From NCBI GenBank assembly GCA_913058215.1, contig CAJXQE010000019.1:1-37910 (forward strand): DNA of 37,910 bases, in the 5' to 3' direction. A model generated the notes under the pieces. That model saw only the letters and a program-made list of their open reading frames with translations. It did no database searches and was not told where the DNA came from. This stretch comes from an uncultured Verrucomicrobiales bacterium (lineage in GTDB: Bacteria > Verrucomicrobiota > Verrucomicrobiia > Verrucomicrobiales > DEV007). How positions within the stretch are numbered: the stretch's first letter is position 1; every line of letters begins with the position of its first letter. Positions 9,723 through 28,433 of the stretch are shown here, in pieces. The position numbers and the translations under genes were made by a program.

Positions 9723-11498
9723 ATGAGATTTGCCTTCCTGATCCTAGCATTCAGTTCTTTATTCCCTGCCCCGGCTGGCCTGAACGCGAACGAAAAGCCC
9801 AACATTATTGTCATTTACACGGATGACCACGGTTGGCCGGATATCGGTGCCGCAGGCATTTACGACGACCTGAAAACTCCGCATATCAATGCACTCGCGG
9901 CTTCGGGAGTTCGCGCCACAAATGGTTATTCCACGGCACCGCAATGTATTCCCTCCCGCGCCGGACTTCTTTCCGGTAGAGCTCAGAATCGCTTCGGAGT
10001 GGAAAGCAACGGCGAGAGTATGGAGGGCTTCGATGCCCAGCTTACCATTGCCGACCGTTTAAAAAAGGCGGGCTATGCCACCGGTCAAATCGGCAAATGG
10101 CATCTCGGCCCCAACAACCAGATCACTGATCACGGATTCGACGATGTCTATTCCAAGAATGCCAATCGTCCCTGCTTTGCGAACTACAACCTGGATGGTG
10201 AGACGATCGAAATGCAAATGGTGGACGACAACAAGTATCACCTCGATGCCTGTTCGGATGCTGCTTTAGCGTTTATCAAACGTCACGCCGATGAATCGTT
10301 TTTCCTCTACCTCGCTTACCGTGCGCCCCACGTTCCGCTCGACGCACCGAAGAAGTATCTCGATCGCTTTCCCGGAAAGATGCCGGAAAGAAGACGCCAG
10401 GCCCTGGCCATGATTTCAGCGATGGACGATGGCGTCGGAGCCATCGTCGGCGATCTGGAGAAACGGGGACTGGCGGAAAACACGCTCATTTTCTACATCG
10501 GAGACAACGGAGCTCCCTTAAAAATTCACATGGACGACGCACCTGGTGGCGGACCGGGTTGGGATGGCTCGCTCAACAAACCGATGAACGGTGAAAAAGG
10601 AATGCTGAGCGAAGGTGGGATCCGGGTTCCTTTCCTCGTATCGTGGCCGGGGACTATTCCTGAAAATCAGGTTTACGACCATCCTGTCACCACTCTCGAC
10701 CTTGCCGCAACTGCCGTATCCATCGCAGGACTGCCGATGGATGACAAACTCGATGGAGTAAATCTGACGCCGTATCTAAGCGGGGAAAAAACCGAAGCGC
10801 CTCACGAATCGCTAACCTGGCGCTGGATCGCTCAGGCCGCTATCCGCGAAGGAAACTGGAAACTGCTGATCGGAGGCAAGCGCGAGTATCTTTTCGATCT
10901 GAAAACTGATCCCGAAGAAACGAAGAATTACCTTTCGGAGAAACCGGAAATTGTCGGGCAGCTCCGCAAAAAACTAAGTGCCTGGGCCGAAGATCTCGAT
11001 CCTCCCGGAATCAATACCAAGGGAATGTCAGAGACCTGGGAGAGGTATTTCGATTTCTATCTCGATGGAAAACCGGCTCCCGAACGCGAAAAGCCGACGA
11101 CAAATTTCCAGGGTTGGCTTCCGCGGAACTCAAGCGGCGAGCTGAAGACAGGCCAGCTGCTTATCACGCCGACCGCAGCCGCCAAACGGCAACGGCATTT
11201 TCTCGCTCAATCGGGAGTCGAGATGAACGGCCCGTTTACGGCAAAAATTGAGATCAGCTGCGGTGACGGAAACATTGCGGTATCGTGGCGAAGCAAAGGC
11301 CAGAAAGATTTTGTCGCCGGCCAAACAATTTCGACCAAAGTGAAGGCAGTACCAGACTGGCAGGAAGTCGAACTGGAGATCCCCGCTGAAGGCGAATCGA
11401 TTCACCTGCGGCTCCATCTTCCCGGCGGAAAAGTCGGACTGAGAAGCATCGAACTGACAGGGGCCGACAAAAAGCAGACTTGGTCCTTCACGCGATAA
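9723..11498 (+). CDS. secreted type I sulfatase with C-terminal beta domain
   Basis: 591 residues, signal peptide about 1-22. The alkaline-phosphatase-like sulfatase core has every expected active-site block: 'IYTDDHGW' (metal Asp pair), '[13 protein letters not shown]' with the formylglycine Cys75 in a CxPSR motif, 'GKWHLG', '[11 protein letters not shown]', 'IGDNGAP' and '[14 protein letters not shown]'. The core ends near residue 430. A further 120 residues or so form a beta-rich C-terminal part ('[14 protein letters not shown]', '[12 protein letters not shown]'). Enzymes of this kind hydrolyse sulfate esters on polysaccharides in the periplasm or outside the cell, after the cysteine is converted to formylglycine; no maturase is in this window. 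The 3' end overlaps the convergent DUF1501 gene by 11 bp. Substrate unknown. Confidence 0.93.
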
Positions 11499-12912
11499 CT
11501 TCGCGAACCACTTTTCCGTGCACATCCGTGAGACGAAACTGTCTTCCCTGGTAGCGGAATGTCAGCTTCTCATGGTTGACTCCTAACAAGTGCATAATCG
11601 TGGCATTAAAATCGTGCATGTGGACCCCCTTGTCGCCCACTGCGTAACCCAGCTCATCTGTCTCGCCATGTGAGTATCCCCCTTTGGTGCCCCCGCCGGC
11701 CATCCAAACGGTGTAGGCCTCTTTGTGATGATCGCGCCCCACGGTGAGTTCTTTTCCTTCGGCCGCCTTGCCCTGCCCCATCGGCGTACGACCAAACTCG
11801 GCTGACCAGACTATGAGGGTATCGTCCAGCATTCCGCGCATCTTCAAATCTTTGATCAGCGCAGCGATAGGTTGATCCACCTCTTTCGCCTTTTCCGGCA
11901 GGCGCTTGAAGACGCTGCCGTGGTGATCCCAGCCCTGATCGAACAACTGCACGAAACGCGTACCTCTTTCCACCAAGCGGCGGGCAAGCAGGCAGTTGTT
12001 GGCGAAACTGGTTTTACCCGGCTCCGTTCCGTACATTTCGTGAGTCTCTTTTGACTCCGAATCGATATCCATCAGCTCCGGTACTGATGTCTGCATCCGG
12101 TAGGCCATTTCATACTGGCTGATCCGGGTTGCGATCTCCGGATCCCGGACATCATCAAGCTGCAGTTTGTTCAGAAAATTGACCGAGTCCACCACATCAC
12201 GTCGCCCCTGACTATTCATCCCTTTGGGATTGGAAAGAAAAAGAACCGGATCACCCTGACTGCGAAATTCAATTCCCTGGTGAACAGTCGGAAGAAACCC
12301 GCTGCCCCATGCGCTGTTGCCCGCACCGAGAACATTGCCCGTTACGAGAACGACAAAACCCGGAAGGTTTTCGTTTTCACTTCCGAGCCCGTAACTGACC
12401 CATGATCCGATACTGGGCCGTCCGAAACGCGGAAACCCGGTCAGGGCAAACATCTGCGCCGGAGCGTGATTGAATTGATCGGTGTGTAAAGTTTTGATGA
12501 AGCAGAGCTCATCGGCAACCGACTGCAAATGCGGCATCAAGTTGGAAATATTCGAACCCGATTTTCCGCTGGGCTTAAAGGCAAACTGCTCATTCCCTTT
12601 CGGAGTCCCCAGGAGAGAAGGCCGACTGCGAATGAAAGCCAACTGCTTGCCTTCGAACATGTGCTTTGGACAAAGCTCGCCGGTTCGCTTTTGCAACTCT
12701 GGCTTGTAATCAAACAGGTCAAGGTGGGACGGTGCCCCCACCATATGAATGTAAATCACTGACTTCGCTTTTGGCGCTAGATGATTCGACGAATCCGGGG
12801 ATCCCTTTGCCATCAGTGAAGACAAGGCCGCGCCTCCAAGACCGAAGCCAGCCTGTTGGAACAGGTGGCGCCTCGTTTGGGAACGCTGATAATCCGCGAG
12901 ATTCATGCTCAC
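11488..12912 (-). CDS. DUF1501 family Tat-exported protein (orphan copy)
   Basis: 474 residues from a GTG at 12912; an ATG two codons later (12906) is also possible, but CAGAGG stands 7 bp before the GTG. Twin arginines Arg14-Arg15 in 'QTRRHLFQQ' mark a Tat signal. Diagnostic DUF1501 blocks are '[19 protein letters not shown]', '[16 protein letters not shown]', '[13 protein letters not shown]', '[13 protein letters not shown]', '[17 protein letters not shown]' and '[17 protein letters not shown]'. The fold is alkaline-phosphatase/sulfatase-like, but the biochemical role of the family is not established. In PVC genomes it usually follows a PSCyt1/DUF1549/DUF1553 gene; this copy has none nearby, unlike the copy at 24567-25970. 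It lies opposite the sulfatase, with overlapping 3' ends, and is divergent from the epimerase gene. Confidence 0.93.
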
Positions 12913-13888: not shown

Positions 13889-14998
13889 CTACCCGAATCC
13901 CTTTGCCAATTCCAAGACCTTGAACTGCTGCCCCATCAGAGACGGATGGGTCAGTGTCTGAAACTGCCTGATTTTTCCAGCAGTTTCTGCATCCGGTGGG
14001 TGCCCTTCCATCGCAAGAAGCCAGGGCTTTGCTGCGTGAGTCAAAAAATGATGTTGATCGGTCAGCTTCTCAGCCATCATTCCTTCATCCTCTGCCCACT
14101 CGCGCAGGTGAGTGAAATTGACGTGAGCGGTAATATCGATTTCTCCAATTTCGGAAAAAGGATCATCCGTCGCCGTGTGAGCCCGGTAACAACGAAGCGT
14201 TCCTTCATTTCTTGAAACGGCAAAATAGTCATCACTTTCGTGGCCATAATCAATGACCCACCATTTTCCTTTTTCGAACAAACCCGCCGCATCCTGAATC
14301 CAGTTGCGAGCCGCCGGACACAGTTCAGTCATGTAGTTGTCAGGAAATTCTTCGCCTTCCGGAAGCAGGCCTTCGACCACAACATCGCCTTCAAGATAAG
14401 CCAGCTGACTATTCTCTCCGACCCCCACACAAAGCTCCCGCCATTCTCCGGCCCGATAAACAACCCGCCGAACCGGAAATGCATCCAGCAATTCATTGCA
14501 GAGAAACACCCCACACTCCGCACTGGCTTCTTCAAAAGAGGCAACAGGCTTGATTCGATCACCTGACCCCGTTGAATCGATTAGCTTCTCCCGCACCGCA
14601 TCCCTCGGCTCGACGATGCGATACTCCACTTTTGAAAAAAGCGGGCTGTTCCGCTTTTCCAAAGCCGCCAGGATGTCCCGTGCGAGCTGAGCATCGTGGG
14701 CTCCCTGCTCCACGATTACAAAATTTTCCGCGGAACCAAAACTTTCCCGCCATTCCTCTTCAATTTTGTGACTGAGGATAGATCCAAAAGTGTCTCCGAC
14801 GGAAACACTGGTAAAAAAATCCCCTTTCCTGCCAACGACACGGGACAGAGGGTCCGAATAGTAGCCGTAAACCTGATGATACAGAGCGAGTTCCATGAAA
14901 TCCTCAAAAGAAATACAACCTTTCGGACTTTTTGATATTCTTTGAAAGATTATCTGAAAAAGGGGCGTATCTTGCGCGTTGGCACTGTGTTGGGACAT
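13889..14998 (-). CDS. MidA/NDUFAF7-like SAM-dependent methyltransferase (DUF185)
   Basis: 369 residues from ATG 14998 (a GTG at 15010 is in frame). Signature blocks of the DUF185 family occur in order: 'ISFEDFMELALYHQVYGYY', 'GDFFTSVSVGDTFGSIL', 'FVIVEQGAHDAQLARDIL' (SAM-binding; the family has E-x-G-x-G-x-L here, so this copy is slightly divergent), 'FLCNELLDAFPV', 'WWVIDYGHESDDYF' and 'DPFSEIGEIDITAHVNF'. The mitochondrial homologue NDUFAF7 methylates an arginine of a complex I subunit; in bacteria the role is unproven. Cytoplasmic. It is transcribed away from the penicillin-binding protein gene with a short gap of about 60 bp, and converges on the epimerase gene. Family assignment is firm. 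Confidence 0.9.
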   Translation of the reverse strand: MSQHSANAQDTPLFQIIFQRISKSPKGCISFEDFMELALYHQVYGYYSDPLSRVVGRKGDFFTSVSVGDTFGSILSHKIEEEWRESFGSAENFVIVEQGAHDAQLARDILAALEKRNSPLFSKVEYRIVEPRDAVREKLIDSTGSGDRIKPVASFEEASAECGVFLCNELLDAFPVRRVVYRAGEWRELCVGVGENSQLAYLEGDVVVEGLLPEGEEFPDNYMTELCPAARNWIQDAAGLFEKGKWWVIDYGHESDDYFAVSRNEGTLRCYRAHTATDDPFSEIGEIDITAHVNFTHLREWAEDEGMMAEKLTDQHHFLTHAAKPWLLAMEGHPPDAETAGKIRQFQTLTHPSLMGQQFKVLELAKGFG

Positions 14999-15056
14999 TT
15001 TCTCACTCACAGCCAGAATTAAACACCTTACTAGAACATTTCACCGCGAAGATTCC

Positions 15057-17690
15057 GTGTCTGAATTAGAAGATAAAGATTTTGAAGGCTTCGGGCCAGT
15101 AGACCCGCTGACGAAAGAAACCGCGAAGGTCGAACTACCCCTTGGTGAGCAAATCGCGAAGCGGGCCAAGCGGCGGCGGCGGATCGTGATGTGGTTGAAG
15201 ATTTCCGGCTTCCTTTTCGTACTCTTCCTCGTGATTTCCCTGATCGGAGCTCTCGGGACTTATTTCTACTGCAAACCACGCTACGATCTCGCATACTCCT
15301 TTGACATGACGGAGCTGGATGACCTCGAAGTCGCCAGCCGGATCTTTGACAGGAATGGAAAAGAGCTGGGCCGGATTTTTGTCCAGAATCGCCGCCCCGT
15401 CGCTCTCGGGGAGGTGTCCGAAAATTTCATCAATGCACTTCTCGCTGCTGAGGATGGCCGCTTTTATGAACACGACGGTGTCGATTACGTGGGTGTGATC
15501 CGGGCGATCTACCAGGGGATTATCAGCAAAGAATTTACCCAGGGGGCATCAACAATCAGTCAGCAGTTGGCTCGAAACACCTTCGAACTGAAAGAGCGCA
15601 GCCTTAGCCGGAAAGTGACCGAAGCTTTTCTCGCCCGACGGGTCGAGGCGGAGATCGAAGGCGACACCAAAATTGCCCGTAAGCAAAAAATTCTCGAGCT
15701 CTACATCAACCGAATTTATTTCGGAGCCGGGTATTATGGAATCGCCGCTGCTGCGGAAGGCTTCTTCGGGAAGGAAGCGAAAAACCTTTCACTTTCCGAA
15801 GCAGCGATCCTCGCCGGTGTTGTCCGTAACCCCTACTATCGTTCGCCGCGCCGTTTTCCCGTCGCTTCCAAGGACACTCGCGACTCCGTTCTTCTCCGTA
15901 TGTTTGCTGACGGCTACATCGACGAACGCGCCATGAAGAGCGCGCAGAACAAACCCATACTGGCGGTGGAGAAAAGTAACATCACCGGGAAGTCAGCCTT
16001 CGTTTACGAAAAAGTCAGGCAGGAAGTGATCGATCTTCTCGGATACGAAGCCGTCGCTGGTGGTGGGTTTCACATTCATACGACCATCGATGCCGATATT
16101 CAGCAGCTTGCCGAAAACAAGCTCAAAGAGCGGCTCTCGATGATCGAGGAGCATCCCGATTTCAATCACCAGACGCTCAGTGAATACAAAGCTGCGAAAG
16201 CGAAGTTCAAGGAAACTTCCGATCGTGAGGCCACTTTCGAAGCTCCGGAATACTTGCAGGGCGCTCTGCTGATGATCGACAACAAGACGGGCTCGGTCAT
16301 CGCCCAGATCGGTAGCCGTGAGTTTTCAGACAGCATGTATGACCGAACTACCCAGGGCAGTCGTCCGCCCGGAACCGCTTTTACTCCTTTTGTTTACGCA
16401 GCGGCCTTTCAGAAAGGCCTTTTCCCCGGAACGCTGGTCGATGACACCCCGATGGACGCCCGACAGGTGATGATCGGGGGAACCACCGGGATTCTCGGCG
16501 AATGGGGAACTGAAGATTTTGATAATGTCTACGAAGGCCGGATCACTTCCCGCCGGGCACTCGCGAAATCGAAGAACTCGGCAACCGTCAGTCTCGGACA
16601 AACCACTGGCCTGAACCGCGTCGTCGACCTTGCCGAAAACGCCGGACTGACCTTTGAAGGAGATCTCAAGAAATACAATGCGACCCTGCTCGGTCAGAAC
16701 CCGGTCTCGATGGATTCCTTTTGCATCGCCTACACAGTTTTCCCCAACCTCGGGAGGAAGCCGGAAAAGACCCACATCATTTCCGATATTCGTGATAGCG
16801 AAGGCAGTATCATTTACTCCCCCAGTGTCTCAATGAGCGCGGGAGAAGTGATTGATCGCTACACCGCTCATCAGATCAACAGCTCCCTGACAGACACCTT
16901 CAAATACGGAACCGGGAAAGCCGCCAAAGAGAAATACGGTCTCAAGGATTTTGCCGTCGCCGGGAAAACAGGAACCGGGTACAACTTTACCGACAACTGG
17001 TTCATCGGATACACCTCGGAAGTGACCTGTGTGGTTTGGGCAGGATTTGACCGGAACAAAACGATCTACCCGGGCGCGTTCAGTTCGGACACCGTTCTTC
17101 CAATCTGGAGCGATGTGATGAATGCCGCCGCTGAAAAATTCGAGCCACGCGCTTTCCTTCCACCACCGGATGCCGAACAGGTAGAAATCTGCCTCAAGTC
17201 AGGCGAGCTGGCTTCGGATAACTGCTACGAAATGGACCAGAAAAGTTCAGGCCGCGCCTCCCAGATTCGCTGCACTTACGTGGAGTATTTGCGCCCGGGA
17301 ACGAAGCTGGATACCGTTTGCCATATTCATGGACGCGGGGGTAATCGTCTGAAAAAGCTCACGAAGACTGACTCGACCGGAAGACTTCGGGTAGCTCCAA
17401 TGATCATCGCCACGGCCCAACCGGTGATGCCCCTCGGGCCAACTTTGTTGGGGACCAATGACCCCTACAGTTCTTTGACACCGGTGATTCGCGCCCGGGT
17501 TGCCATCCCCCGTGCAACGGTGATATCGGAAGACGGGGAAGCAACAGTTGATCCTGAAGCGATCGAAAAACCTGAAGTTGGTTCCAATGGATTGCCAGTT
17601 GCGAGACCAATCATTCTCGAAGAGGAGGCCCGAGAAATGCCTGCTCAGAGGGTGCGTCTTCCCGCCCCGAAACCTATCGACTTTGATTGA
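15057..17690 (+). CDS. class A penicillin-binding protein with degenerate transpeptidase site
   Basis: 877 residues from GTG 15057; the frame extends to a TTG at 14979, but that would overlap the divergent gene. A basic cytoplasmic tail is followed by one membrane helix ('ISGFLFVLFLVISLIGALG'). The glycosyltransferase (GT51) domain is intact: 'AAEDGRFYEHDGVD' with catalytic Glu132, 'TQGASTISQQLARN', 'RKVTEAFLARRVE' and 'ILELYINRIYFG'. The transpeptidase domain keeps the SxN motif (Ser505-Lys-Asn) and Lys637-Thr-Gly-Thr. In place of SxxK, however, it has Thr440-Ala-Phe-Thr443 within 'RPPGTAFTPFVYAAAF', where active enzymes have 'PGSxFKPF'. The acyl-accepting serine and its lysine are thus both replaced. 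It should still polymerise glycan strands but probably not cross-link by the usual mechanism. A proline-rich C-terminal tail of about 150 residues follows. Next gene starts 30 bp downstream. Confidence 0.9.
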   Translation: MSELEDKDFEGFGPVDPLTKETAKVELPLGEQIAKRAKRRRRIVMWLKISGFLFVLFLVISLIGALGTYFYCKPRYDLAYSFDMTELDDLEVASRIFDRNGKELGRIFVQNRRPVALGEVSENFINALLAAEDGRFYEHDGVDYVGVIRAIYQGIISKEFTQGASTISQQLARNTFELKERSLSRKVTEAFLARRVEAEIEGDTKIARKQKILELYINRIYFGAGYYGIAAAAEGFFGKEAKNLSLSEAAILAGVVRNPYYRSPRRFPVASKDTRDSVLLRMFADGYIDERAMKSAQNKPILAVEKSNITGKSAFVYEKVRQEVIDLLGYEAVAGGGFHIHTTIDADIQQLAENKLKERLSMIEEHPDFNHQTLSEYKAAKAKFKETSDREATFEAPEYLQGALLMIDNKTGSVIAQIGSREFSDSMYDRTTQGSRPPGTAFTPFVYAAAFQKGLFPGTLVDDTPMDARQVMIGGTTGILGEWGTEDFDNVYEGRITSRRALAKSKNSATVSLGQTTGLNRVVDLAENAGLTFEGDLKKYNATLLGQNPVSMDSFCIAYTVFPNLGRKPEKTHIISDIRDSEGSIIYSPSVSMSAGEVIDRYTAHQINSSLTDTFKYGTGKAAKEKYGLKDFAVAGKTGTGYNFTDNWFIGYTSEVTCVVWAGFDRNKTIYPGAFSSDTVLPIWSDVMNAAAEKFEPRAFLPPPDAEQVEICLKSGELASDNCYEMDQKSSGRASQIRCTYVEYLRPGTKLDTVCHIHGRGGNRLKKLTKTDSTGRLRVAPMIIATAQPVMPLGPTLLGTNDPYSSLTPVIRARVAIPRATVISEDGEATVDPEAIEKPEVGSNGLPVARPIILEEEAREMPAQRVRLPAPKPIDFD

Positions 17691-18112: not shown

Positions 18113-19564
18113 ATGAAAACTTTTCTCGCCCCCATACTCTTTTTCACCCTGCACCTGGCCCTTCTAACTTCTTCCGCCACCGGCGAAGAACGTAAGCCAA
18201 ACTTCATTGTCATCTTCTGCGATAATCTGGGCTACGGAGACATCGAACCCTTCGGATCCACGCTCCATCGCACTCCCCATCTCAATCGAATGGCGGAGGA
18301 AGGAATGAAGTTCACCCATTTCTGCGTCACCGCCGGAGTCTGCACCCCGTCGCGCGCAAGCATCATCACCGGCTGCTATTCGCAACGTGTCAGCATGCAT
18401 ATGAATCCGCGTGACTACCACGTGCTTCGCCCCATCTCACCCTACGGTCTGAATCCCAAAGAAGTGACCATTGCTGAAGCACTCAAGAAAGAAGGCTACG
18501 CGACCGGCATGGTCGGAAAATGGCACCTCGGCGATCAGCCCGACTTTTTGCCCCACAAGCAGGGCTTTGACTGGTTCTTCGGTGTCCCCTATTCCGATGA
18601 CATGACGGAACGAATCTGGAGTCAGGACGGTTCTCACTGGCCTCCCCTGCCGCTCATGGAAAACGAAAAAGTTCTCGAAGCACCGGTTGACCGGAACGGC
18701 CTGACAAAACGCTATACCGAAGTGGCGATTGACTGGATCGAGAAAAACAAAGACCAACCCTTCTTTCTTTATTTTCCTCAAGCCATGCCCGGAAGCACCG
18801 CGACTCCGTTCTCCAGTGAAGAGTTTCGCGGAAAAAGCAAAAACGGTCCGTGGGGAGATTCCATCGAGGAACTCGACTGGTCCACTGGTGAGCTGATGAA
18901 GAAACTCGAAGAACTGAACATTGCCAAAGACACTCTCGTGGTCTGGACATCAGACAATGGCGCGCCCATCAACAAAGACCTGTCCGACTTGAGTCGCGGA
19001 TCCAATTTGCCACTGCACGGGCGCGGATACACCACCAGCGAAGGAGCTTTCCGTGTCCCGACAATCATGTGGCAGCCCGGTAAAATTCAGGCGGGATCAG
19101 TTTGCGAAGAACTGAGCTCAACCATGGACCTTTATCCGACCTTTGTGAAAATGGCCGGAGGGAAAATTAAGGACAAAGTAAAACGCGACGGCCACGACAT
19201 TTCCGATCTCATTGCCGGGAAGGAAGGAGCGAAAACTCCTCACAAAGCTTACTATTATTATTATCTGGATGAATTACAGGCCGTTCGTTCCGGTCCCTGG
19301 AAACTGTTTTTGCCAATGGCGAAGCCGGCTCGTCACCCTCACTTCAAGGCAGGGGATGATCAAGCAGGCCCACTGCTCTTTAATGTCGTCGAAGATATCG
19401 GATGTGACCATGACGTGGCAGCAGATCATCCGACGGTCGTCAAAAAACTCACTGCGCTCGCTGAAGTGATGCGCGCCGATCTCGGCGATAAAGGAAAACC
19501 CGGTCCCGGAATACGGCCTCCCGGCAAAGTTGATAATCCCGTTCCGGTAGTGAAATTGGACTGA
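18113..19564 (+). CDS. secreted arylsulfatase-A-like protein with altered active site
   Basis: 483 residues from ATG 18113, which opens a signal peptide (about 1-24); the frame is open upstream to 17855 but that part overlaps the DUF3147 gene. The formylglycine motif is intact: 'VCTPSRASIITG' with Cys77. 'GKWHLG' (Lys136, His138) and 'TSDNGAP' (Asp281-Asn282) are also present. Three other positions differ from arylsulfatase A and from the two other sulfatases in this window: the first metal pair reads Asp37-Asn38, the PH of the 'MPHVP'-type block is 'MPGST' (Gly227), and the late lysine is Arg304 in 'HGRGYTTSEG'. A run of five tyrosines occurs in 'KAYYYYYLDEL'. It may be a subfamily with another substrate or a weak enzyme. 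It ends 217 bp before a convergent gene. Confidence 0.88.
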   Translation: MKTFLAPILFFTLHLALLTSSATGEERKPNFIVIFCDNLGYGDIEPFGSTLHRTPHLNRMAEEGMKFTHFCVTAGVCTPSRASIITGCYSQRVSMHMNPRDYHVLRPISPYGLNPKEVTIAEALKKEGYATGMVGKWHLGDQPDFLPHKQGFDWFFGVPYSDDMTERIWSQDGSHWPPLPLMENEKVLEAPVDRNGLTKRYTEVAIDWIEKNKDQPFFLYFPQAMPGSTATPFSSEEFRGKSKNGPWGDSIEELDWSTGELMKKLEELNIAKDTLVVWTSDNGAPINKDLSDLSRGSNLPLHGRGYTTSEGAFRVPTIMWQPGKIQAGSVCEELSSTMDLYPTFVKMAGGKIKDKVKRDGHDISDLIAGKEGAKTPHKAYYYYYLDELQAVRSGPWKLFLPMAKPARHPHFKAGDDQAGPLLFNVVEDIGCDHDVAADHPTVVKKLTALAEVMRADLGDKGKPGPGIRPPGKVDNPVPVVKLD

Positions 19565-24566: not shown

Positions 24567-25970
24567 TCACGCCAATATCTCTTGCGCAACGTTTCCGTGA
24601 ACATCTGTCAGCCGAAAATCCCTCCCCGCATGGCGATAGGTCAGCTTCTCATGATTCAATCCCAGCAGATGCAGGATGGTCGCGTGCCAGTCGTGGATGT
24701 GCATTCTCCCCTCGACCGCTTCGTAACCGTGATCATCAGTCGCACCGTAGGAAAAGCCGCCTTTGACGCCTCCGCCCGCCATCCAGGTGGTGTATCCTTT
24801 ATGATTGTGATCGCGCCCGTCGCCGCCCTGACCGTGAGGTGTCCGGCCAAATTCACCCGCCCAAATCACGAGAGTGTCTTTCAGCATATCGCGCTGTTTC
24901 AAATCAGTGAGAAGCCCCTGGATCGGCTTGTCGATTTCATTGCAACGGGCCGGGAGATCTTCGGACAGTGCCCGGTGATGATCCCAGCTTCCGTGCGAAA
25001 TCTCGATAAAACGAACTCCGGATTCCGCAAAACGACGCGCGAGAAGACACTGGCGTCCGAAGGAATCCGTATCACCTCCATCGACTCCGTAGAGGTCGAG
25101 CATTTGTTTCGATTCCCCGCTGAGGTCCATGACCTCGGGCAAAGTGTCTTGCATCCGGAAGGCGAGCTCGAAGGATTCAATCGCCCCTTCCACACCGGGG
25201 TGATGCTGGTCTTCGCGGAGTTTGTTGGCGTTGAGTTGCTGGATAAAATCGAGCTGCTGCCTCTGCTGTTTTTCAGAAAGGTCCGGATTCTTGATGTTCG
25301 GGATGGCTGCCTGATCGGCTCTCCGCGCATTTCTCCGACCACGCGATGCTCCGCCAAATTTCGCTCCCTGATAAATGGCGGGCAAAAATGCGCTACCGAA
25401 GTGTTGAGCATTTCTCCCGGGGTTCAGGGTGACAAAACCGGGTAGATTCGTGTTCTCCGTACCGAGCCCGTAGAGACTCCAGGCACCGAGAGAGGGGCGA
25501 ACGAACTGAAAATTTCCCGTGTGCATCTGCGTCTGTGCCTGGGGATGATTCGGCATGTCAGTGTGCATACCTTTGAGCATACAAAGGTCATCGGCATGTT
25601 TGGCGAGATTCGGGAAAAGCTCCGACATCCACAATCCACCCTGGCCATGTTGCTTAAACTCCCAGGGCGAACCGAGAAGAGTCGCTCCGCGGTTGGTATC
25701 ATGAGCACCGGGTTTACCGTTGTCCTCATTCAGCTTCGGCTTGTAGTCGAAGGTATCGAGATGCGAAGGAGCTCCCTGCATGGAGAGAAAAATCACCCGC
25801 TTGGCCCGGGGCACAAAGTGAGGGGATTTCGGATCAAGCGGCCCGGCCTTTCCGGCAAGGACAGATTCCGCCATAGCCTGCCGTTGAGCAAGCGCTGCGA
25901 AAGCGAGATAGCCAAATCCGCTGGAAAGAGTTTTGAGAGTGGATCTTCGGGAAAAAGGAGAATCGATCAT
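24567..25970 (-). CDS. DUF1501 family Tat-exported protein (paired copy)
   Basis: 467 residues. Arg8-Arg9 in 'SRRSTLKTL' followed by a hydrophobic stretch forms a Tat signal. DUF1501 blocks are 'RAKRVIFLSMQGAPSHLDTFD', in parts, 'TDMPNHPQAQTQMHTG', 'FIEISHGSWDHHRA', 'WAGEFGRTPHGQGGDGRDH' and 'HLLGLNHEKLTYRHAGRD'. It starts 12 bp after the stop of the PSCyt1/DUF1549/DUF1553 gene, the standard PVC arrangement, so the two are almost surely one operon and probably act together outside the cytoplasm. The family has a sulfatase/phosphatase-like fold, but its reaction is not known. It is about as similar in motif wording to the copy at 11488-12912 as family members usually are, so the two look like old paralogues and not a recent duplication. 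Confidence 0.94.
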   Translation of the reverse strand: MIDSPFSRRSTLKTLSSGFGYLAFAALAQRQAMAESVLAGKAGPLDPKSPHFVPRAKRVIFLSMQGAPSHLDTFDYKPKLNEDNGKPGAHDTNRGATLLGSPWEFKQHGQGGLWMSELFPNLAKHADDLCMLKGMHTDMPNHPQAQTQMHTGNFQFVRPSLGAWSLYGLGTENTNLPGFVTLNPGRNAQHFGSAFLPAIYQGAKFGGASRGRRNARRADQAAIPNIKNPDLSEKQQRQQLDFIQQLNANKLREDQHHPGVEGAIESFELAFRMQDTLPEVMDLSGESKQMLDLYGVDGGDTDSFGRQCLLARRFAESGVRFIEISHGSWDHHRALSEDLPARCNEIDKPIQGLLTDLKQRDMLKDTLVIWAGEFGRTPHGQGGDGRDHNHKGYTTWMAGGGVKGGFSYGATDDHGYEAVEGRMHIHDWHATILHLLGLNHEKLTYRHAGRDFRLTDVHGNVAQEILA

Positions 25971-25982
25971 AGGAATTCAGAG

Positions 25983-28433
25983 TCAGTTGAGGTAACGAAA
26001 CTCGGCGGAAGCGAGGAGGGATTGGCAAAAGGTAGCGAGGGCTAAACGGTCGGGGTTGCCTTCATCGCCTGCGGCAAAACCAGAGAGAAATTTTTGCGAA
26101 GCAGCCATCTCCGCCCGATTGGGCACACGGCTGTAACAGGCGAGAAAAGCTTCTGTGATTCGAGCGCTCGAGTCATCAGTTTTTTCCAACAAGCGATCCG
26201 CCAGCGCTTTGCTTTGATTGAGCACGAAGGAATTATTCATCAGATAAAGTGACTGACCCGGCACGTTGGTTTCGTCGCGATCACCTGCAACCCGATTGGG
26301 ATCTGCGGCATCGAAAAGATCCAGCGCCTCGGGCAAGCCGTCCCTCACGATAGGGAGAAAGACCGACCGGTAGTTGACCGCCCTGTTTACTACATCAGAT
26401 CCAGCCCGTTGCGCGATCGCCGCATCTCCGAGCTCTCCAATGATGGAACCGAGTGGTCGCTCAGTATCCAGTCTACCGGAAGCTGTCAGCATGGCATCGC
26501 GAAGAGATTCCGCATCGAGGCGCTCAGGACTTCGTCTCCAGAGAAGGGTGTTGTCGGGATCCTGCGAATAGGCAGCCGAATCAAAGTCTGCGCTCATGCG
26601 GTAGGTTCGGGTATTCACCAAATCGCGGATCAGATCTTTGACAGACCATCCATTCTCCGCAAACTCAACCGCCAGGGTATCGAGCAGCTCGGGATGACTT
26701 GGCAGTTGCCCGGTCGCCCCGAAATTGTCGTGTGAAGTGACAAGCCCCTGCCCAAAAAGATTAGACCAGACACGATTGACCATGACCCGGGCGGTCAGCG
26801 GATTCTCCGGAGAGGATAGCCAATCGGCCAATTGCCGCCTACCACTGGCGGAATCGGGAATCGTTTCACCGGATTCCGGGATATCAATCACTTGAACAAA
26901 TCCGCGCGGCACGGTCTGGGCGGGCTTGTTGACGTCGCCCCGCACGAGCACATTCACATCGACAATTTCCGCTTTCTCCTGAACCCCCATCCCAAAGGGA
27001 ATCGGATTCCCGGCTTCGTCGTAGGAATTTACCCGCGCCTGAAACACAGAAGTCTGGGAACGGAGTCGAATGACTTGCTGGATATTATTCCCGGCAGTCT
27101 CGCCGGACATCCGGGCCCTGCGATTTTCCATGATCATTTCCTCCCTTTGACCTTCAAGACCAGCGAGCCTCGCTTTTAATTGAGCCAACTCTTCGGGTGA
27201 GTTCTCCAACATCGTCGGCGTATCTGATAGCGGAAGCTCGATCAACTTGGTCGCCCGTCTCGCCTGCACTGTATTGATCGTTCCGAAATGCGTCATCGTG
27301 TTCTGAAAAATCCCGGACATTGCGTAGTAGTCGGTCGTCGGAATTGGATCGGTCTTGTGATCGTGACAACGGGCACAGGAAACCGTCAGTCCAAGGATTG
27401 CCTGGGTGGTTGCGTCAATCTGTTCATCCGCAACATCGAGAGTAAACTGTCTTGGATTCCGCTCGATCAAACTCTTGGGACCTACAGCGAGGAACCCGGT
27501 GGCGATCAAATTTTCCTGCCACTCTGCGTCCGTTTTGGCCGGCAGCAAATCGCCTGCGATCTGTTCCTTTACGAAACGGTCATAGGGCTTGTCTTTGTTG
27601 AAAGAATCGATCACATAGTCGCGGTAACGCCAGGCATTGGGAAAGCTCATGTTGACGTCCATGCCGGTAGACTCTGCATAGCGGGCAACGTCGAGCCAGT
27701 GCCGTCCCCAACGCTCCCCAAAACGTTCGCTGGCCAGCAGTTCGTCGACCTTAGCTTTATAGGCAGCTTCCGGATCTTTCTTCCAGGCAGCGGCGAATTT
27801 TTTGATCTCATGAACCAGCGGAGGCATTCCGATTAGATCGAAATGGAGTCGTCTCAGTAGATCGTCCCCTTTTGCATCCGCTGCCGGACTGAGCTTGGCA
27901 CCTTCCAATTTTGCGAGAACAAAGCGGTCCACATTCGACTTTGCCCAGTCGGCATTCTTAACTGCAGGAGGATCTGCTTTCTCCGGATGTTGAAAGGACC
28001 AGAACTCCCGCCCTTTCTCGATATCAATCTCACTTCTAACCACAGAAATCTCGGTCACCCTGGGATCGGGTGCCCCCATCTCGATCCATCGCTTGATGTC
28101 AGCGACCGCTTCCGACGAAAGCCTTTCTTTCGGAGGCATTTCGAAATCGGGATCGGTGTAGGAAGTAGTCGTATAAAGAAGGCTCTTATCCGGATCACCG
28201 GCGACGAGAGCCGGTCCACTGTCGCCTCCGAGCAGAACTCCGTCCTTCGTATCGAGAGACAAACCCCCTTTGATTTTCTCACCGGACGAGTGACAACGAT
28301 AACAATTCTCCACCAGCACCGGGCGAATCTTTTCCTCGAAGAATTTGGTTTCTTCGGGTGTCAATTCAGCTGCATCACCAAATCCTGAAGACAGGGCCAG
28401 AAGAGGCAGGAGGATTGCTGCTCGTAGTTTCAT
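25983..28433 (-). CDS. PSCyt1 / DUF1549 / DUF1553 planctomycete-type cytochrome protein
   Basis: 816 residues, signal peptide about 1-21. An N-terminal cytochrome-c-like domain (PSCyt1) holds the haem motif CYRCH (Cys44-His48) and a later methionine in 'FEMPPKERL'. The DUF1549 (PSCyt2) domain covers roughly residues 150-360 with 'DLIGMPPLVHEI', 'ERWGRHWLDVARYAES' and a second CxxCH in 'SCARCHDHKTDPIP'. The DUF1553 (PSD1) domain covers about 530-800 with 'LADWLSSPENPLTARVMVNRVW', in parts, 'GLVTSHDNFGATGQLPSHPELLD', in parts, and 'LYLMNNSFVLNQ'. Two CxxCH motifs suggest up to two c-type haems attached in the periplasm. The family is linked by context with polysaccharide-degrading gene sets in PVC bacteria; its reaction is unknown. 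It follows the EF-hand gene by 35 bp and precedes DUF1501 by 12 bp. Confidence 0.95.
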   Translation of the reverse strand: MKLRAAILLPLLALSSGFGDAAELTPEETKFFEEKIRPVLVENCYRCHSSGEKIKGGLSLDTKDGVLLGGDSGPALVAGDPDKSLLYTTTSYTDPDFEMPPKERLSSEAVADIKRWIEMGAPDPRVTEISVVRSEIDIEKGREFWSFQHPEKADPPAVKNADWAKSNVDRFVLAKLEGAKLSPAADAKGDDLLRRLHFDLIGMPPLVHEIKKFAAAWKKDPEAAYKAKVDELLASERFGERWGRHWLDVARYAESTGMDVNMSFPNAWRYRDYVIDSFNKDKPYDRFVKEQIAGDLLPAKTDAEWQENLIATGFLAVGPKSLIERNPRQFTLDVADEQIDATTQAILGLTVSCARCHDHKTDPIPTTDYYAMSGIFQNTMTHFGTINTVQARRATKLIELPLSDTPTMLENSPEELAQLKARLAGLEGQREEMIMENRRARMSGETAGNNIQQVIRLRSQTSVFQARVNSYDEAGNPIPFGMGVQEKAEIVDVNVLVRGDVNKPAQTVPRGFVQVIDIPESGETIPDSASGRRQLADWLSSPENPLTARVMVNRVWSNLFGQGLVTSHDNFGATGQLPSHPELLDTLAVEFAENGWSVKDLIRDLVNTRTYRMSADFDSAAYSQDPDNTLLWRRSPERLDAESLRDAMLTASGRLDTERPLGSIIGELGDAAIAQRAGSDVVNRAVNYRSVFLPIVRDGLPEALDLFDAADPNRVAGDRDETNVPGQSLYLMNNSFVLNQSKALADRLLEKTDDSSARITEAFLACYSRVPNRAEMAASQKFLSGFAAGDEGNPDRLALATFCQSLLASAEFRYLN

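Follow-up and report, generated by a model that had tools for sequence, protein, structure and literature searches.

A class A PBP-like protein lacking the SxxK residues represents a conserved subfamily in Verrucomicrobiota with a probably non-catalytic transpeptidase domain

Class A penicillin-binding proteins (PBPs) are known as bifunctional enzymes and as targets of antibiotics, in which the serine of the SxxK motif in the transpeptidase (TP) domain is activated by the lysine for ordinary acylation and the KTG motif holds the carboxylate of the peptide. We asked what has become of this domain in a class A PBP-like gene with a putative pseudo-transpeptidase, found in a stretch of 37 910 nucleotides from an uncultured Verrucomicrobiales bacterium (the window), which is contig C19 of a 7.67 Mb draft genome comprising 595 contigs. 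The gene occupies 15057..17690 on the plus strand (877 aa from a GTG codon at 15057), and the longest form of the same frame extends over 14979–17690 (TTG start, 903 aa), from which residues are numbered herein. The GTG at 15057 is the likelier start, because position 14979 lies inside the divergent neighbouring gene and the orthologues L022 and L038 start near 15057.

The encoded protein has a single N-terminal transmembrane helix (approximately 15201..15266, plus strand, as for all features of this gene), placed by a hydropathy peak and a long helix in the structural model, followed by a glycosyltransferase (GT) domain (PF00912, Transgly, 15357..15902, Pfam 1.4e-53) and a TP domain (PF00905, 16260..17021, Pfam 4.3e-18). 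E158 (15450..15452), the glutamate of the GT motif ED-x-x-F-x-x-H, was invariant in 22 aligned members of profile A1. At 16371–16388 the codons GGA ACC GCT TTT ACT CCT give G-T-A-F-T-P, thus placing T466-A-F-T469 (16374..16385) where S-x-x-K is expected. Since P-G-T-A-F-T-P-F aligns with P-G-S-S-F-K-P-F and P-G-S-T-I-K-P-F of solved PBP1A sequences, where T466 corresponds to the catalytic Ser and T469 to the Lys, this motif assignment, as proposed in a first-pass annotation made from the sequence alone, is right. The same annotation had regarded the SxN motif, KTGT and the GT domain as kept, which agreed with what we found; S531-K-N533 is coded at 16569..16577 and K663-T-G-T at 16965..16976. 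The segment GGTTGILGEWGTE (G500–E512, 16476..16514), finally, replaces the W-x-P-x-N of ordinary class A PBPs and is a motif of the subfamily described below.

Compared with known families, the protein is closest to a PBP1A-type class A PBP (PF00912 plus PF00905; TIGR02074), with which it shares domain order, membrane anchor, GT motifs, TP fold and KTG, and its best sequence matches in the PDB are named PBP1A. Of the features that define a class A PBP, it has a GT51 domain with the catalytic Glu motif, a C-terminal TP fold, SxN and KTG, but in place of SxxK it reads TAFT, and it also differs from the PBP1A type in having GILGEWGxE at the W-x-P-x-N site. Its TIGR02074 score was 465.8, below the cut-off of 508.75, a threshold exceeded by L112 of the subfamily (514.6) and narrowly missed by L001, an ordinary paralogue (508.7). 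It resembles a monofunctional glycosyltransferase (TIGR02070; MtgA/SgtB) in that it would probably polymerise without cross-linking, but differs in keeping a whole conserved TP domain, and it scored 120.7 against the TIGR02070 cut-off of 182.65.

For residue counts we fetched 87 distinct TP sequences with the subfamily marker and removed one (L148), an ordinary PBP matched by chance, leaving 86 members, not including five decayed paralogues or four fusion proteins, which were tallied separately; these sequences are the best matches of our queries, not a random sample, and weight the lineages unevenly. Position 466 was Thr in 85 members and Ser in one. Position 469 was by contrast free, being Lys in 28, Leu in 25, Thr in 22, Met in four, Phe in three and Gln, Ala, Val or His in one each, such that the lysine is gone in 58 of 86. 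The conservation of TxxT that the first-pass annotation had considered thus held for the first threonine and not for the last. The SxN serine (position 531) was Ser in 60, Gly in 25 and Ala in one, and the asparagine (533) was Asn in 60, Ile in 24, Thr in one and Leu in one, each thereby being lost in 26 of 86, and the KTG lysine (663) was Lys in 84 and Gln in two. Thr, Lys, SxN and the KTG lysine occurred together in 23 of the 86. All 123 ordinary class A PBPs (122 plus L148) had S, K, S, N and K at the five sites. In an 89-row tree, the distribution of Lys versus no Lys at position 469 needs at least 11 changes, or 22 counting all residues, and loss of K469 was not significantly linked to loss of S531, the six usable independent pairs being too few.

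A match to the window gene was found in all 56 genomes of a search among relatives, its own genome included. At the level of the genus (at least 50% identity), 30 distinct sequences covered the TP region, these being the window and 29 others, and read TxxK in 23, TxxM in four and TxxT in three. The 29 others had Thr first without exception and Lys fourth in 23, and SxxK, the presence of which in all close relatives would have pointed to an error in the window, was seen in none; a fourth-position Thr was also present in L026 and L045, on separate branches of the tree. The Ser-to-Thr change is thus family-wide, and the Lys-to-Thr change in the lineage of the window looks recent. The sole subfamily member read with SxxK (L059 / L258, genome G034) has GSAFK together with GEWA instead of GEWG, and may represent either a reversal or an early branch.

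We compared gains and losses between 54 subfamily members and 30 ordinary proteins. Ser466 was lost in all but one of the 54, Lys469 and the Pro511 and Asn513 of W-x-P-x-N in most, Gly520 in about half, and Ser531 and Asn533 in part, with R462, G465, P470, KTG and W687 largely kept. G500, G504, L506, G507, E508, G510 and E512 were near-invariant gains, constituting a motif G-x-L-G-E-W-G-x-E; among the 86 members, G507 and E508 were found in all and W509 and E512 in 85 each. The gain of a near-invariant motif shows that the TP domain is not merely decaying. The median divergence of the TP domain relative to the GT domain was 1.18 in the subfamily; two ordinary groups had 1.31 and 1.16, and the decayed paralogues 1.6 (nine pairs). 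Among the 25 closest pairs, TP dN/dS was at most 0.093 in 22, of which 20 were between members without the lysine, and 0.30–0.46 in the remaining three; over 475 pairs with dS below 1.2, many of them distant, the medians were 0.56 for TP and 0.33 for GT. Together, these values indicate that the TP domain is preserved, if under weaker constraint than the GT domain. In the decayed paralogues, G-E-W was retained in all five, with the threonine lost in one (L080, reading GEWS) and the KTG lysine in four, and this persistence beyond the loss of Thr or the KTG lysine argues that the motif has a role in structure or contacts, independent of that site, and not in the chemistry at it.

An AlphaFold2 model built with 50 sequences had a mean pLDDT of 83.7 with both domains folded, and a second model with nine sequences had a mean of 72.9. 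The best Foldseek matches, from E 1.3e-38, were PBP1A of A. baumannii and H. influenzae and PBP1b of E. coli. The GEWG loop, which carries E508, had a pLDDT below 50 in both models; its alignment to W-x-P-x-N, together with known PBP structures, would place it at the active site.

We consider it probable that the protein is an active glycan polymerase, with a TP domain that is non-catalytic and serves binding, allostery or docking. The membrane-anchored GT half would polymerise lipid II, as suggested by its intact motifs, and the TP half would keep its fold and the KTG strand and be unable to form an acyl-enzyme in the usual way. The domain, being under selection, may act by binding to the nascent strand, by binding to a partner or by controlling the GT domain, and cross-links would be supplied in trans by other PBPs of the cell, of class A or class B, that are intact; the GT activity, the loss of TP activity and the binding or docking role are all what we infer. 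As the Ser is absent, and the Lys absent in most members, ordinary acylation is not expected, whereas the kept KTG means that peptide binding may remain. Against a non-catalytic TP domain speak the Lys in 28 members, the Thr version of the triad in 23, the KTG lysine in 84 and the SxxK of L059, as well as the missing link between the losses of K469 and S531, the higher TP than GT dN/dS over the 475 pairs, the three close pairs at 0.30–0.46 and the near-invariance of Thr466, which exceeds what a dead site would need.

This near-invariance bears on whether the domain could instead be a threonine-based transpeptidase or carboxypeptidase, with T466 as nucleophile and a base other than K469, e.g. 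K663 or E508. We hold that to be quite unlikely, and still a candidate since Thr466, Lys663 and Glu508 hardly vary in a TP domain under constraint; the SxN serine and asparagine are nonetheless each dispensed with in 26 members, G-E-W stays in decayed paralogues in spite of the threonine being lost in one of five and the KTG lysine in four, and the loop bearing E508 was placed with low confidence in both models. The first-pass annotation had proposed a glycan polymerase with either a pseudo-transpeptidase or a threonine enzyme. The GT motifs and the replaced TP residues support such a polymerase with an altered TP domain, and the pseudo-transpeptidase fits better of the two, although sequence gives no final separation between them.

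It is also conceivable, if unlikely, that the family is mixed, with TxxK members transpeptidating weakly via Thr and lineages like that of the window having lost this secondarily to become pure polymerases. The lysine in 28 of 86 members and in 23 of 30 within the genus, along with the 23 complete Thr-version triads, would suit this, but the new motif is the same with or without Lys, constraint in most close pairs without Lys matches that in the two close pairs having it, and it would be strange for a reaction on which some lineages depend to be lost several times while the domain is kept. An error of sequencing, assembly or annotation, or a pseudogene in decay, is exceedingly improbable even with a draft genome of 595 contigs, considering the open frame of 877–903 aa, the Ser-to-Thr change in all 29 other genus-level sequences and the fourth-place Thr in two of these; we rejected it as relatives share the Ser-to-Thr change.

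Returning to the favoured reading, in which the polymerase is active and the TP domain non-catalytic, relatives with a dead TP domain were found together with class B PBPs. At all five loci of decayed paralogues that were read, from four genomes, an intact class B PBP gene immediately precedes that of the paralogue on the same strand (L246, G000:C340, 2618–6797; also L250–L253). These upstream class B PBPs have SxxK, SxN and KTGT, and both of those scanned with Pfam had PBP_dimer and TP domains. The next gene codes for an M15-type peptidase at three of these loci and a YkuD L,D-transpeptidase at one. In addition, four fusion proteins of 1280–1371 aa, from other families of the class, have the order GT, dead TP, PBP_dimer and intact TP (L236 1–4026; L237 298–4137; and, on the minus strand, L238 126–4142 and L239 2–4114). 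The first TP domain of all four reads ALLQ or SLLQ for SxxK and M-[TSP]-G for KTG, and the second has a good Pfam score, with SxN and KTG/KSG in all four and SxxK in both of the alignments examined. A fusion match spanning both parts in a long frame was found in eight of 113 genomes of the class, two of the matches holding one stop, and these eight genomes did not overlap with the 36 having the subfamily. In AU tests with 48 rows, addressing whether dead TP domains had one origin or two, grouping of the fusions with the subfamily (p 0.41) or with ordinary paralogues (p 0.38) was in neither case rejected.

Tentatively, the degenerate TP domain of class A PBPs in this class of bacteria could have become a module for docking with, or handing over to, a separate class B PBP. 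This would amount to a third type of polymerase/cross-linker pair, next to bifunctional class A PBPs and to SEDS–class B PBP pairs, with the fusions as its one-chain form. This pairing was seen in paralogues and distant relatives and not beside the window's own gene, so that a link to class B PBPs would be an argument from relatives and not from the neighbourhood of the window. Pairs of SEDS proteins and class B PBPs, such as RodA–PBP2 and FtsW–FtsI, likewise have a separate polymerase and cross-linker, as the class B neighbours and fusions of the dead-TP relatives suggest here; the polymerase is in this case instead a GT51 class A PBP, and all 15 genomes examined for SEDS genes still have them, wherefore replacement of SEDS by the fusions was not supported. 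In a study of C. difficile (PMC12539705), the GT and TP roles of the class A PBP1 are reported to be separable, and the class B PBP3 to complex with PBP1 and act there without catalysis; in that case the natural class A PBP is catalytic with TP deficiency being engineered (PMC12539705), and the roles are thus reversed compared to those suggested here. Neither this subfamily nor class A–class B fusions came up in the open-access literature searched, which also gave nothing useful on Ser-to-Thr PBP mutants. A conserved subfamily having lost the acylation residues and gained a motif suggests that retaining a TP domain can be of value even if it makes no cross-links; it allows testing of what such a domain does for a polymerase, and the natural fusions, in which a dead-TP class A PBP is joined to a live one of class B, point to a partner.

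With regards to other PBPs of the window's genome, PF00912 matched seven places and PF00905 twelve. A second intact class A PBP, which the first-pass annotation had advised looking for, was indeed present, with SxxK-containing class A PBPs on contigs C289 (GSTFK), C119 (SAGK) and C38 (GSTLK) and a fragment with SxxK on C455; a GT frame on C288 is cut off at the contig end. A second odd class A PBP, on C340, reads GTAFA, GKN and TTGT. Among the 36 subfamily-bearing genomes of the class sample, 16 were read for a second class A PBP with SxxK, and all 16 had one.

Defining full-length members as those scoring above 840 bits with profile A1, we counted them in 36 of the 113 genomes sampled in the class, among the matches listed, and in a sample of 193 genomes of the phylum the strong matches listed (above 840 bits) were all from the window's own class. 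Named carriers are labelled Akkermansia, a cultured gut genus (contigs L115 and L116), Haloferula, Akkermansiaceae, Spartobacteria and Verrucomicrobiota MAGs. Within the genomes sampled, this is an old subfamily, found in many families of one class, which by the named relatives belongs to Verrucomicrobiota. In the main tree, built without the motif columns, the subfamily and decayed paralogues formed one group of 59 rows (SH-aLRT 99) inside a Verrucomicrobiota group, with a support of 96 in a second sequence set; the subfamily without the decayed paralogues had a support of only 75 in the second set and was not one side of a branch in the first tree. The branching broadly follows the taxonomy codes, and descent therefore looks mainly vertical, with the exceptions of G033 and G034, which share the family code of the window and fall away from its genus. 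With the tree broadly tracking taxonomy and all strong matches of the phylum sample within the class, a recent horizontal oddity was not favoured. Akkermansia is classed as having an aPBP in PMC8406291. One contig labelled Akkermansia muciniphila (L114) falls with a different family code of the order and apart from the other Akkermansia, and its label is doubtful.

Genomes G042 and G048 have a genus code shared with genomes that group with named Akkermansia. Both encode an additional GT protein, approximately 597 aa long, in which a remnant of the TP domain is left, not recognised by Pfam in the one scanned. Shorter class A PBPs with a TP remnant, from genomes whose family code is grouped with named Akkermansia, were observed at L260 (380–2170, minus strand), L261 (920–2707) and L263 (530–2251).

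As for the neighbourhood of the window gene, the divergent gene (13892..15010, minus strand) was assigned by Pfam to PF02636, a SAM-dependent methyltransferase (MidA/NDUFAF7-like). We tested 43 subfamily loci for this neighbour, three of which were too short in flank, and found it divergent from the PBP gene at 36 of the remaining 40, the four where it was not found being L115, L116, L255 and L259; this conserved neighbour has no clear functional link to the PBP-like gene. The window also holds two sulfatases and DUF1501 / PSD1–PSCyt genes (9723–11495, 18113–19561, 11491–12912 and 24570–28433), typical of polysaccharide-degrading planctomycete and verrucomicrobial genomes.
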